Below, in pieces: positions 210 to 17,779 of a DNA stretch of 44,238 nucleotides. This DNA is from Chitinophaga pinensis (GTDB lineage: Bacteria; Bacteroidota; Bacteroidia; Chitinophagales; Chitinophagaceae), in the NCBI GenBank assembly GCA_945897185.1, contig CAMDFC010000012.1, positions 1-44,238 on the forward strand. The letters are read 5' to 3'. Numbering within the stretch: position 1 is the first letter of the stretch; each line of letters opens with the position of its first letter. Both the position numbers and the translations under genes were made by a program. The notes under the pieces were generated by a model, which worked only from the letters and a program-made list of their open reading frames with translations, did no database searches and had not been told where the DNA came from.

Positions 210-1148
210 TCATATACAATTGGCAAAATGCCCAGATTGGAAAACAAGATCATCGTTCCCCTTTCCAGCAACCAATGGAAATAAAATTTCTTTCAGATCC
301 TCAGTAAAAGGCAATATTCTGATTTTCCCATTTTTGGTTGCCTTCCTTACCCTTGCCTCTGCATGTGTTCCTTTCACGGTTCTTGCCAGGGATTCCTTGA
401 TAGTAATTATTTTTTTTGTGAAATCCAGGCTGCCTACCCTCAACCCTACAGCTTCAGCATTTCTGACACCAGTCTTAAAGATGAAATACAGAAAAGGATA
501 GTAATGAGAGTGTTTATATCTGGAGCTGGGTAGACAAAATAGATCTCTCCTTATTGCATCCAGGATCAACCTTATCTCTTCTTCTGTAAATGGTTCCCTT
601 TCTGGTTTCTCTGTTTTTTTCACCTTCCTTCTTGATACACCATCAAAAGGATTGATGGTCCAAATTCCCTGCTTAAGCATCCAACTAGAAAAACCATTGA
701 GCATGGATAGCCTCTCGTTGTATGTCTTAGGACAATATTTCTCAGTATTCAACTTATTCAAGAATTCACTGGGGTTGATTTCACCCCATTTCCTCAATGT
801 ACCCCTGAGATGGAAGTAATCTGAATTCTTATCACAATCAAGTTGTTTGTAATCCTTCACCCATTTCTCAAAACAGGTAACTATGGTTTGGAGCATTTTA
901 GGCTCTTCTACAGCCTTTAAAACTTTACCACCATACTTTGTCAAGGTTTCATCAAACTGACCATTGGCTATGTCTAATTCAATTTGTAGCACTACAGTTT
1001 TTGTTGCCTTCAAATTGATCTTGTCGTACGGACCAAGACTTAATGAGTATCGTTTCCCTTGATACCTCCATCTTAATCTAATTCTGTTTTTGTAATTCGT
1101 AAGTGATACTGCTCCCTTTGGAGACTTGTGACCCAAAACGTGACCCAT
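210..1148 (-). pseudogene. Tyrosine recombinase (phage-type integrase), C-terminally truncated
   Basis: The 312-residue product starts with an Arm-type DNA-binding region (about residues 8-75, with the RLRWRYQGKRYSLSLG stretch typical of integrases). A SAM-like core-binding region follows (about 85-180), then the start of the catalytic domain with the first active-site arginine in KTGVRNAEAVGLR (about residue 228). The reading frame ends after LVFQSG with a short unrelated tail. The later catalytic residues (the H-x-x-R box and the nucleophilic tyrosine) are absent, and a full family member is roughly 80-100 residues longer. It cannot be catalytically complete. It lies about 160 bases past the 3' end of tRNA-Pro, the usual position of an integrase next to its tRNA attachment site. 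I read it as the remnant of an integrated element that has otherwise been lost. Confidence 0.8.
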
Positions 1149-1273: not shown

Positions 1274-1308
1274 CATAAAAAAAGAGCACCAATCCCTTGA
1301 TGCTCTTT
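1274..1308 (-). terminator. Intrinsic terminator of the tRNA-Ser/tRNA-Pro unit
   Basis: Read on the minus strand, AAAGAGCA pairs with TGCTCTTT across a 12-base loop and is followed by a run of seven T. The first stem base lies two bases past the tRNA-Pro discriminator. Position and shape fit a rho-independent terminator for the tRNA transcript. Confidence 0.75.
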
Positions 1309-1309
1309 G

Positions 1310-1383
1310 TCGGGAAGACAGGATTCGAACCTGCGACCCCCTGGTCCCAAACCAGGTGCGCTACCGGCCTGCGCTACTTCCCG
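1310..1383 (-). tRNA. tRNA-Pro (anticodon TGG)
   Basis: On the minus strand the acceptor strands CGGGAAG and CTTCCCG pair perfectly. The anticodon stem ACCAG/CTGGT encloses a loop with TGG, and the T-arm GCAGG-TTCGAAT-CCTGT follows. The discriminator is A, and no CCA is encoded. The length is 74 nt. It is the second tRNA of a unit that begins with tRNA-Ser, with four tandem copies of its own 5' half in the spacer between them. Confidence 0.95.
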
Positions 1384-1583
1384 AACTATTCTTACCAGGT
1401 GCGTTACTCCCGCAACTGCGGGACTACTTCCCGAACTATTCTTACCAGGTGCGTTACTCCCGCAACTGCGGGACTACTTCCCGAACTATTCTTATCAGGT
1501 GCGTTACTCCCGCAACTGCGGGACTACTTCCCGAGCTATTCTTATCAGGTGCGTTACTCCCGCAACTGCGGGACTACTTCCCG
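1384..1583 (-). repeat. Four tandem 50-bp repeats derived from the 5' half of tRNA-Pro
   Basis: Four head-to-tail units (1384-1433, 1434-1483, 1484-1533, 1534-1583) differ only by C/T at one site and one A/G change. A short degenerate start of a fifth unit follows at about 1584-1594. On the minus strand each unit begins with CGGGAAGTAG, identical to the first ten bases of the adjacent tRNA-Pro. It ends with GTAACGCACCTGGT (or GAT), which matches the tRNA from the D-arm to the 5' anticodon strand at 13 of 14 positions. The D-arm interior is replaced by a 7-bp inverted repeat, TCCCGCA-GT-TGCGGGA. The repeats lie inside the tRNA-Ser to tRNA-Pro spacer and should be transcribed with both tRNAs. 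There are no unique spacers, so this is not a CRISPR array. Confidence 0.9.
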
Positions 1584-1598
1584 AAATATCTTTAACTG

Positions 1599-1687
1599 CG
1601 GTGGGGGCGGGATTCGAACCCGCGGTACAGAATTACCCGTACGGCAGTTTAGCAAACTACTGATTTCAGCCACTCATCCACCCCACC
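1599..1687 (-). tRNA. tRNA-Ser (anticodon GCT)
   Basis: On the minus strand the acceptor strands GGTGGGG and CCCCACC pair. The anticodon loop TTTGCTAAA carries GCT, the variable arm is long as in class II tRNAs (CGTACGGGTAATTCTGTACCG region), and the T-arm is GCGGG-TTCGAAT-CCCGC. The discriminator is G, as expected for serine, and CCA is not encoded. The length is 89 nt. It is the first gene of the Ser-repeat-Pro unit. Confidence 0.95.
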
Positions 1688-16621: not shown

Positions 16622-17779
16622 ATGTACAGCTTACTGAGGAATTTATTGTTCAAGATGGAAGCCGAGCAGGCACATTATTTTTCAATGAATCTGCTAAGGG
16701 CAGCCTGTAGTATCGGACCAGTAAGAAAGATCATCAGTAAATGTTTTACACCAAGTCAGCCTGAATTAATCAGAACTGTATTTGGTCTCCCTTTCAGAAA
16801 TCCTGTTGGATTGGGAGCAGGTTTTGATAAAAACGCATCCTACTTAAGAGAATTAGAAACATTGGGATTCGGGTTTGTAGAAATTGGCACTGTTACTCCA
16901 TTGCCACAAGCAGGCAATGAAAAACCCCGCTCATTCAGGTTGCCAGCCGATAAGGCACTTATCAACAGAATGGGGTTTAATAATGATGGGGTGAAGGTGA
17001 TTAGGGAGAGGTTGGAGGAGTGGAAGGCAAATACCACCCCTCATCCACCTTCGGCGGACAAGCTCTACCGCAAGGCGGGTTTCGTAGCCCCTCCTGATTC
17101 AGGAGGGGAGTTGGGGAGAAGCCTGCCTGCCGGTAGGCAGGGGAACAGGGGAAATGCGAGGATGATTATTGGAGGGAATATTGGAAAAAATAAAAATACG
17201 CCGAATGAAGAGGCTTGGAAGGATTATGAAATCTGTTTCAACGAACTTTTTGATGTCGTGGATTATTTTGTGGTAAATGTTTCATCACCCAATACGCCTG
17301 GTTTACGTGCACTCCAAGACAAAGATGCACTCCTTAAAATTTTGGGCAACTTGAATCAAAACAACCGATCAAGACCTGAACGCAAACCGCTATTACTCAA
17401 GATCGCCCCAGACCTTACCCCTGAACAATTAAAGGATATTGCAGAAATAGCTGATGAAATAAATTTAGATGGAATTGTGAGTAGCAATACCACTATTTCA
17501 AGGGAAAGACTTTCTAGTGCTTCTAAAGTTCAGGCAGAAAAAATAGGAATGGGTGGATTGAGCGGTAAGCCTTTAAAAGAAGCCTCCGATGAAGTACTGC
17601 AAGAATTGGTAAGGCTAACCAAAGGAAAACTGCCCATCATTGCAAGCGGAGGAATATTTAAAGGTGAAGATGCAAAAGACAAACTGAACCTAGGGGCAAC
17701 GATGGTTCAAGTATGGACTGGATTCATTTATGAAGGTCCAACTATTGTAAATAAAATTTGTAAAAAAATAAATTTGTAA
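16622..17779 (+). CDS. pyrD: Dihydroorotate dehydrogenase (quinone), class 2, with in-frame insertion
   Basis: The enzyme oxidises dihydroorotate to orotate in pyrimidine synthesis, with FMN and quinone at the inner membrane. Class 2 marks are the amphipathic N-terminus (MYSLLRNLLFKMEAEQAHYFSM), FMN contact GLGAGFDKNA (63-72), EIGTVTPLPQAGN, NRMGFNNDG (115-123), the catalytic serine region NVSSPNTPGLR, KIAPDLT, SNTT and the late ASGGIFKGEDA. At 385 residues it is about 45 longer than usual. The excess is a block at about residues 137-179 encoded by a GC-rich, palindrome-bearing segment, inserted in frame between a surface helix and the strand IIGGNIGKNK. All catalytic motifs remain in frame, so the enzyme is probably functional. 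The TerC gene starts two bases after the stop. Confidence 0.95.
   Translation: MYSLLRNLLFKMEAEQAHYFSMNLLRAACSIGPVRKIISKCFTPSQPELIRTVFGLPFRNPVGLGAGFDKNASYLRELETLGFGFVEIGTVTPLPQAGNEKPRSFRLPADKALINRMGFNNDGVKVIRERLEEWKANTTPHPPSADKLYRKAGFVAPPDSGGELGRSLPAGRQGNRGNARMIIGGNIGKNKNTPNEEAWKDYEICFNELFDVVDYFVVNVSSPNTPGLRALQDKDALLKILGNLNQNNRSRPERKPLLLKIAPDLTPEQLKDIAEIADEINLDGIVSSNTTISRERLSSASKVQAEKIGMGGLSGKPLKEASDEVLQELVRLTKGKLPIIASGGIFKGEDAKDKLNLGATMVQVWTGFIYEGPTIVNKICKKINL
17030..17158 (+). repeat. Palindromic repeat element inserted in frame within pyrD
   Basis: The roughly 129-base segment is clearly more GC-rich than the flanking gene. It carries two strong inverted repeats. One is CCCCTCCTGA/TCAGGAGGGG around a single T (17088-17108), and the other is a near-perfect one built on CCTGCCTGCCGG (17122-17141). 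It encodes a stretch including SADKLYRKAGFVAPPDSGG and RSLPAGRQG, absent from other PyrD proteins I know. The Gly/Pro/Arg-rich SLPAGRQG translation is what I recall from dispersed Bacteroidota repeats. The exact ends are estimated to within a few codons. Confidence 0.75.

Follow-up and report, generated by a model that had tools for sequence, protein, structure and literature searches.

The window analysed here, a stretch of 44,238 nucleotides from Chitinophaga pinensis (contig CAMDFC010000012.1), carries on its minus strand the genes for tRNA-Ser(GCT) and tRNA-Pro(TGG), and between them stands an array of four 50-bp repeats (Table 1). ARAGORN, TRF and alignment agreed that these are near-identical, head-to-tail copies of the 5' half of tRNA-Pro, in the same orientation as the intact gene and directly upstream of it, as the first-pass annotation of this DNA had described. 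TRF reported a 50-bp period (97% matches, score 404) at 1374-1589, a span that takes in the first ten bases of tRNA-Pro; the true units are four segments of exactly 50 bp at 1384-1583. The annotation had placed the array at 1384-1594, and its start stands; its end lies slightly too far, since 1584-1597 is the spacer before tRNA-Ser and the units stop at 1583.

Table 1. Features of the tRNA-Ser/tRNA-Pro locus, listed in minus-strand order.
Feature	Position	Strand	Evidence
tRNA-Ser(GCT), first of the pair	1598..1687	(-)	ARAGORN; RF00005
14-bp spacer	1584..1597	(-)	Similar to the short spacers between Ser and Pro in relatives, and to the final 10 bp of the units
Unit 1 (distal): tRNA-Pro 5' part with hairpin, and spacer end	1534..1583	(-)	TRF, reading
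Hairpin TCCCGCAGTTGCGGGA of unit 1, in the place of the D-arm	1558..1573	(-)	Palindrome pattern search
Unit 2	1484..1533	(-)	TRF, reading
Hairpin of unit 2	1508..1523	(-)	Palindrome pattern search
Unit 3	1434..1483	(-)	TRF, reading
Hairpin of unit 3	1458..1473	(-)	Palindrome pattern search
Unit 4, adjoining the tRNA	1384..1433	(-)	TRF, reading, alignment
Hairpin of unit 4	1408..1423	(-)	Palindrome pattern search
Intact tRNA-Pro(TGG)	1309..1383	(-)	ARAGORN; RF00005, 66.3 bits
Terminator-like hairpin and T run, 3' of tRNA-Pro	1281..1308	(-)	Terminator scan
Integrase gene, next after the terminator-like hairpin	210..1148		

The best local alignment of a unit with tRNA-Pro covered tRNA positions 1-33 and contained three short insertions by which the D-arm becomes the perfect hairpin TCCCGCAGTTGCGGGA, and the replacement of the D-arm noted in the annotation was confirmed in this way. 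The alignment score of 37 was reached by none of 5000 dinucleotide shuffles (highest score 30), and the best among 17,490 other 50-mers of the window scored 23. The hairpin is identical across all four units, and the pattern TCCCG(2-24)CGGGA, four of whose six matches in the window are the units, was expected only 0.11 times; the hairpin is therefore not a product of chance. The units differ from one another by 0 to 2 bases. Both tRNA-proximal units carry CCTGGT, as does tRNA-Pro, and both distal units carry CCTGAT, so that the sequence closest to tRNA-Pro is found in the units nearest to it. The last ten bases of the unit, AAGAATAGTT in three units and AAGAATAGCT in unit 1, are similar to the stretch with which the Ser-Pro spacer of relatives ends (AAGATAGTT before the tRNA in L016), and the unit therefore reads as a spacer end followed by the 5' part of the tRNA, in the manner of a tandem duplication.

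A DNA search of the same genome detected no second copy of the unit, and the window hairpin was found in that genome only within the array; dispersal of the unit away from tRNA-Pro, which the annotation had named as evidence against its reading, was not seen there. Viral contigs searched with an exact 26-base stretch of the unit gave no match. A palindrome, CCTGCCTGCCGGTAGGCAGG, is located at 17122-17141 of the window and occurs at 11 places in the genome (allowing up to 2 mismatches), three of which are in partial tRNA copies (C31, C96 and C123).

On the minus strand between 1850 and 1150, the sole terminator-like site follows tRNA-Pro and none is present between the two tRNA genes, and we therefore presume that the units are transcribed together with tRNA-Ser and tRNA-Pro. 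On the plus strand, a weak terminator-like site, antisense to the tRNAs, was seen at each unit junction (1419-1583). Beyond the tRNA-Pro terminator, the integrase gene marks what looks like one end of an integrative element, whose other end would be a 71-bp copy of the tRNA-Pro 3' region on contig C129, and in another genome (G008) a similar partial copy lies approximately 8.2 kb from tRNA-Pro.

We compared the locus with that of relatives. In 12 relatives of the same genus with adjacent tRNA-Ser and tRNA-Pro genes, the spacers were 12-30 bp long and held no units; the window array is not inherited from the genus. The corresponding Ser-Pro site of G036 (L021, 1-370) holds a different tandem array of approximately 93-bp units, broken off by the contig end. 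These units are degenerate copies that retain much of tRNA-Pro, and the anticodon arm is replaced by TCCCGACTAGGGTCGGGA. A search of the window array against 294 genomes of the family gave matches in 12, the source genome included, some of which were only to the tRNA itself. In one of the family genomes, G455, the same Ser-Pro locus contains four 5' units of 57-58 bp, followed by intact tRNA-Pro, a terminator and an 89-codon open frame with a GIY-YIG domain. The D-arm of three of these units is a perfect hairpin, CCCGCCATGGCGGG, and that of the most distal unit is an imperfect one. Beyond the GIY-YIG frame there is a nearly full-length copy, called as tRNA-Pro by ARAGORN and with nearly the same hairpin, and then a second GIY-YIG gene. 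Judged by its sequence, the G455 locus is the most direct tie between the window array, which has no open reading frame, and a GIY-YIG system. The G306 locus has no upstream unit, and there tRNA-Pro is followed by a GIY-YIG gene and by a copy of almost full length whose D-arm and T-loop have hairpins; G312 and G341 have one upstream unit apiece.

Partial copies are also present elsewhere in the source genome, beside approximately 10 of its 33 tRNA genes. They adjoin, in the same orientation, tRNA-Phe, tRNA-Leu(GAG), two genes each for tRNA-Arg(ACG) and tRNA-Met, tRNA-Ala(GGC), tRNA-Arg(CCT) and, less clearly, tRNA-Ser(TGA). A match of at least 12 nt to the gene's own sequence was found in the 700-bp flanks of 9 of the 33 tRNA genes, compared to 7 of 1004 pairings with another isotype; tRNA-Pro, with two matching blocks of 10 nt, is outside these nine and comes on top of them. 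All the partial copies read in this genome, that of tRNA-Ser(TGA) excepted, carried a G/C-rich palindrome in a loop or an arm. A search with the GIY-YIG family PF01541 gave six matches. Two are part of long ORFs (600 and 477 aa); the other four are stand-alone genes, and all of these lie between an intact tRNA and a hairpin-bearing partial copy. The same search detected no GIY-YIG gene on the window contig or at tRNA-Pro of this genome. The association with GIY-YIG and other tRNA genes is located beyond the window, out of reach of the annotation.

Three further arrangements were seen. A free-standing pseudo-tRNA-Pro of this genome with tRNA-like flanks (L003, 242-341; G000:C112) has TCCCGACTGAAAGTCGGGA as its anticodon arm and another palindrome-like insert in its T-loop; its acceptor stem retains both strands. 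Two 92-bp tandem repeats downstream of tRNA-Ser(TGA) (L063, 1662-1845) each end in CTCTCCG, the 3' end of the tRNA, and recall the rtT repeats of E. coli. Before tRNA-Arg(ACG), a GIY-YIG frame lacking a stop of its own runs through a partial copy into the intact tRNA (L069, 1498-1869).

The association with GIY-YIG genes was surveyed at 129 recognised stand-alone loci, 50 from the genus (found with Pfam in 41 genomes, the source genome included) and 79 in a named set, found with a profile of the four tRNA-linked proteins of the source genome; two loci that profile A1 did not recognise (L176 and L213) and a 272-aa match (G021:C72) are outside this number. A same-strand tRNA gene was present within 800 bp in 102 of the 129 loci, a count in which the named set is biased because the pattern used to find it came from tRNA-linked proteins, whereas the genus set is not. 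In the genus set alone, 37 of 50 loci had such a tRNA, nine were undecidable at contig ends and four had none within 800 bp. In 18 of the 27 loci that lack a tRNA, a contig end is no more than 400 bp away, and at the nine of the 129 loci where ARAGORN found no tRNA within 800 bp despite at least 400 bp on both sides, Rfam placed a tRNA beside two. The Rfam run was made on 20 of the 27 loci (L208, L103, L147, L148, L087 and L102 among them; L210, L214 and L215 were left out), and gave matches at L087, L091, L102, L124 and L145, and at L148 far from the gene. Partial copies, defined by an exact stretch of at least 10 nt, accompanied 87 of the 102 tRNA-linked loci. Bacteroidota make up 26 of the 57 named loci in the nuclease tree, and the others come from Ignavibacteriota, Fidelibacterota, Parcubacteria, Acidobacteriota, Methylomirabilota, Armatimonadota and further groups.

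The partial copies were strongly polar. With tandem copies counted several times, and 41 internal pieces and five full-length copies left out, copies upstream of the intact tRNA kept its 5' end in 63 cases and its 3' end in 2, whereas copies downstream kept the 3' end in 65 cases and the 5' end in 1. Such polarity would result if a break within the tRNA gene were the site of an insertion or the starting point of a duplication. The rule is not absolute, because the downstream copies in G455 and G306, both outside the 129 loci, are nearly full length.

A second regularity concerned hairpins. Again with tandem copies counted several times, a perfect stem of at least 6 bp was found in 56 of the 63 upstream 5' copies and 58 of the 65 downstream 3' copies. 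The corresponding counts were 22 among 102 intact tRNAs and 56 among 1288 control stretches; the search span was the copy and up to 45 bp beside it, the tRNA with no such addition, and 90 bp for the controls. Stems of the TCCCG..CGGGA type were present in 35 of the 63 and 31 of the 65 copies, compared to 3 of the 102 intact tRNAs and 1 of the 1288 controls. This type occurred 106 times in 63.3 kb near GIY-YIG genes and three times in 328.2 kb of far flank, which makes it approximately 180-fold denser near the genes. Where a copy consists of collinear pieces, 67 of the 83 gaps between them held a perfect stem of at least 6 bp, and these gaps were mostly at the D-loop, the anticodon arm, the variable region or the T-loop. 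The T-loop motif GTTCRANTY was present in 74 of 102 intact tRNAs, 2 of 65 upstream copies and 29 of 68 downstream copies; the window units end before it, at position 33.

Arrays resembling that of the window, with hairpin-bearing 5' units that lack an ORF and stand before an intact tRNA, were found at tRNA-Val (L113, three units of 95 bp) and twice at tRNA-Met (L088, three of 115 bp; L206, four of 91 bp), and in each of them a GIY-YIG gene lies 3' of the tRNA. Three similar-looking units of 74 bp lie at a contig end in L252. Other arrays bear ORFs (L125, at tRNA-Pro(GGG) with three units; L129; L141; L146), and at L129, beside tRNA-Pro(TGG), two ORF-bearing units and one from which the ORF seems to have been deleted lie side by side. 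Strain-named records with such arrays include Arenibacter catalasegens, Flavobacterium supellecticarium and Amniculibacterium aquaticum. A separate case is that of Psychroflexus curvus (L147, 2637-5406), where eight GIY-YIG genes follow one another with a period of approximately 365 bp; neither ARAGORN nor Rfam detected a tRNA in this 6.2-kb locus.

The proteins encoded at these loci are approximately 80 aa long, with Y6, S10, Y17, G19, T21, R27, H31, E63 and K67 invariant in 24 sequences. Purifying selection acts on the genes, with dN/dS of 0.05 to 0.46 in 16 unsaturated pairs and of 0.09 to 0.21 in 12 of these. The nearest PDB entries to a structure model (pLDDT 88) were UPF0213 and Slx1, and in a profile search UPF0213 and Slx1, a branched-DNA nuclease, ranked before homing enzymes, with I-TevI at an E value of 0.9. 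Weak matches were obtained to an NCBIfam group I intron endonuclease (below the cut-off) and to PHROGs homing endonucleases. We considered a closest relationship to homing endonucleases and rejected it, UPF0213 and Slx1 being nearer by both sequence and fold.

In a tree of the nucleases, tRNA isotype labels required 33 changes, compared to 65.2 after shuffling (none of 200 shuffles was as low), in a test that draws on few alignment columns and many open forks and is helped by near-copies. The source genome's four proteins are spread over different subclades with isotype labels. Of 34 genus proteins, 13 had their top match in the named set at their own isotype (the mean after shuffling was 2.7, and 3 of 2000 shuffles reached 13); for top matches in another phylum the isotype agreed in 16 of 51 cases, compared to 5.5 after shuffling. 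On these sequence comparisons, nuclease lineages are tied to the isotype of the putative target tRNA.

A hairpin related to that of the window was found in 55 of 198 Bacteroidia genomes, at up to 30 places. Among 30 sampled dispersed sites, 27 had no tRNA within the 3-kb locus or none shown, two had one approximately 500 bp away, and one was an array of tRNA copies. Stems of at least 6 bp flanked the dispersed palindrome at 3 of 29 sites, compared to 0.6% of control positions, which is suggestive of palindromes landing in hairpin loops, with three sites too few to claim it. We also modelled the effect of the hairpin on RNA folding. In the window, the predicted value for the native acceptor stem was 0.90, falling to 0.25 when the hairpin was reverted and approaching 1.0 when the units were removed; with shuffled hairpins the mean was 0.47 (range 0.00 to 0.98). 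Shorter flanks shifted the window values to 0.83, 0.40 and 0.46, and these estimates are therefore sensitive. They fit a role in which the hairpin would keep the units from capturing the 3' strand of tRNA-Pro. Such insulation was predicted in this genome for Pro, Phe and Leu(GAG) and failed at both Arg(ACG) loci. As a general property of these hairpins it was rejected, since among 28 loci 11 folded better and 6 worse with the hairpin (means 0.42 and 0.37, and 0.73 without the copies). An RNA-guided, CRISPR-like reading, in which the hairpin and the tRNA-matching stretch would serve as a guide, was also considered, with evidence pointing neither way; the protein is very small.

Our preferred reading, which we hold with moderate confidence, is that the window array is the upstream, ORF-less part, or the scar, of a GIY-YIG element directed at tRNA genes. 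A small Slx1/UPF0213-like nuclease from such an element would break a tRNA gene within an arm or loop, and recombinational repair would restore one intact tRNA gene and leave partial copies, of the 5' part on its upstream side and of the 3' part on its downstream side, whether or not the nuclease gene accompanies them. The units could then multiply in tandem through renewed breakage or unequal recombination. A hairpin in the place of an arm or in a loop, acquired perhaps by insertion of a mobile palindrome or by conversion of the arm, should stop most partial copies from being a tRNA, and may shield them from recutting or from folding wrongly with the genuine tRNA. The window lacks the nuclease gene, and only duplicated 5' units would remain there, within the presumed Ser-Pro transcript. 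The precedent of the phage nuclease SegB, described below, leads us to suggest that a nuclease broke tRNA-Pro, that repair duplicated its 5' part and that recombination brought the units to four. The role of a nuclease at the window is an analogy, because neither the window nor the tRNA-Pro locus of this genome has a GIY-YIG gene.

The units could also have arisen by duplication that needed no nuclease, through slippage or short-homology recombination ending in the tRNA gene, with unequal recombination to four units and a hairpin formed by mutation or by the landing of a palindrome. The near-identity of the units, with more divergence in the distal ones, and the spacer-like end of each are what such an origin would give; one end point within the tRNA yields the same polarity, and a palindrome of this kind is widespread in Bacteroidia (55 of 198 genomes, up to 30 places in one). 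We nevertheless regard this origin as rather unlikely, for it leaves unexplained the presence of tRNA genes beside 102 of 129 GIY-YIG genes with copies at 87, the hairpins in about nine of ten copies, and the fact that G036 and G455 also have arrays at this Ser-Pro site. Slippage as put forward in the first-pass annotation may hold for the enlargement of the array and fails for the hairpins and the GIY-YIG link across many genomes. The annotation also proposed repeated integration and excision at the tRNA. The adjacent tyrosine-recombinase element would be the candidate agent, given the integrase gene just downstream and a 71-bp stretch (G000:C129:2724-2794; L009) identical to the 3' part of tRNA-Pro with its terminator, which resembles an attachment site. 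This origin is not supported: in G017 (L020) tRNA-Pro is adjoined by the same flank and the same integrase (identity 77% across 305 aa), with a 28-bp spacer and no array, and G010 (L016) is likewise free of an array, on a contig that reaches the first 62 residues of the integrase. The segments also differ: tRNA 1-33 is repeated, whereas the segment shared as an attachment site begins near tRNA 24 and continues past the tRNA end. As relatives with the same element have no array, an integrase origin is very improbable, and the element at tRNA-Pro seems to be independent of the array.

A function as RNA, the last of the annotation's three proposals, in which processed hairpin or tRNA-half RNAs would act as small RNAs or decoys or set the ratio of tRNA-Ser to tRNA-Pro, appears improbable to us. 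It would suit the position of the units between co-oriented tRNA genes with no same-strand terminator-like site between them, the single hairpin kept identical in all four, and the predicted benefit of the hairpin to tRNA-Pro folding in the window. Against it, the 12 relatives of the genus manage with unit-free spacers of 12-30 bp and the units of G036 at the same site are quite different, and this turnover makes the array unlike a conserved RNA. That the array is an artefact of assembly we consider scarcely credible, even though the genome is a draft of 129 contigs and similar repeats lie at contig ends (G036; C111). The variant sites differ among the units in an ordered way, and the pattern occurs in strain-named records as well as in metagenome assemblies.

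The tRNA-directed GIY-YIG element preferred here may extend beyond the window. We tentatively raise the possibility of an undescribed class of mobile elements that live on tRNA genes in many phyla and consist of an Slx1-like GIY-YIG nuclease of about 80 residues and a hairpin, often of the TCCCG..CGGGA type. Such elements would break tRNA arms, rebuild one intact copy and leave polar, hairpin-marked halves that grow into tandem arrays; the hairpin could be a branched-DNA substrate or an immunity mark, and ORF-less arrays could be the non-autonomous form. If so, this would suggest what small GIY-YIG proteins akin to the hypothetical family UPF0213 do, provide a second route, besides integrases, by which tRNA genes attract mobile DNA, and account for puzzling tRNA fragments that adjoin bacterial tRNA genes. 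Both the rule of polarity and the exchange of an arm for a hairpin are sharp regularities that can be tested.

A literature search gave no description of such arrays in bacterial chromosomes, in keeping with the annotation's view that they are not an ordinary known feature of tRNA operons; among its best-ranked matches, with preprints and most subscription journals outside its scope, none described hairpin-bearing tRNA halves with GIY-YIG genes in bacterial chromosomes. The accessible part of a survey of the GIY-YIG superfamily mentions no link of this type to tRNA genes (PMC1564403).

Several known systems share single features with the window array. The rtT repeats that follow E. coli tyrT are tandem, adjoin a tRNA gene and each contain a piece of it, as the window units do, but theirs are 3' end pieces lying downstream in longer units, whereas the window repeats are shorter, carry the 5' part, lie upstream and have an arm swapped for a hairpin. 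Genomic islands integrate at tRNA genes via tyrosine recombinases and leave a partial tRNA copy in the same orientation, which sits at the far end of a large element. One island seemingly lies at this very tRNA-Pro; the window, however, has tandem 50-bp 5' units with hairpins, and relatives with the element lack the array. REP sequences and Rickettsia palindromic elements are short hairpins that recur in a genome, some of them inside RNA genes. Mitochondrial repetitive hairpin elements are likewise short, perfect and recurrent (PMC2800124). The hairpins described here share these properties with mobile palindromes, and differ in standing at an arm or loop of partial tRNA copies and, for the TCCCG..CGGGA type, in their roughly 180-fold concentration near GIY-YIG genes relative to far flanks.

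The closest parallel is with SegB, a free-standing GIY-YIG homing endonuclease of T-even phages (PMC13096335; PMC2988022). In phage T6, SegB and its active site are required for tandem amplification of a tRNA-Tyr segment; the enzyme cuts within tRNA genes, with the motif RAWTSGAAC at 23 of 83 sites, and the amplification joint is a short homology between the 5' end of the tRNA and the 3' end of the nuclease gene (PMC13096335). The reverse complement of this motif would fit the tRNA T-loop, where several 5' copies stop (L088 and L206); the window units stop at tRNA position 33. Both systems have a GIY-YIG gene adjoining tRNA genes and tandem units with tRNA sequence, and in the window itself the units are head-to-tail with one end in the tRNA gene. 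They differ in that SegB belongs to a phage and its amplified unit holds a full-length tRNA, and the accessible portion of that report describes no hairpin-swapped partial copies (PMC13096335). SegB is an analogy of action, since the bacterial proteins, at approximately 80 aa, are nearest to UPF0213 and Slx1 and not to phage homing nucleases. The window differs further from a SegB-type element in having no nuclease gene, a feature that the parallel array of G455 does possess. If the preferred reading is correct, nuclease-driven amplification of tRNA segments, shown in phage in the available account (PMC13096335), would extend to bacterial chromosomes.
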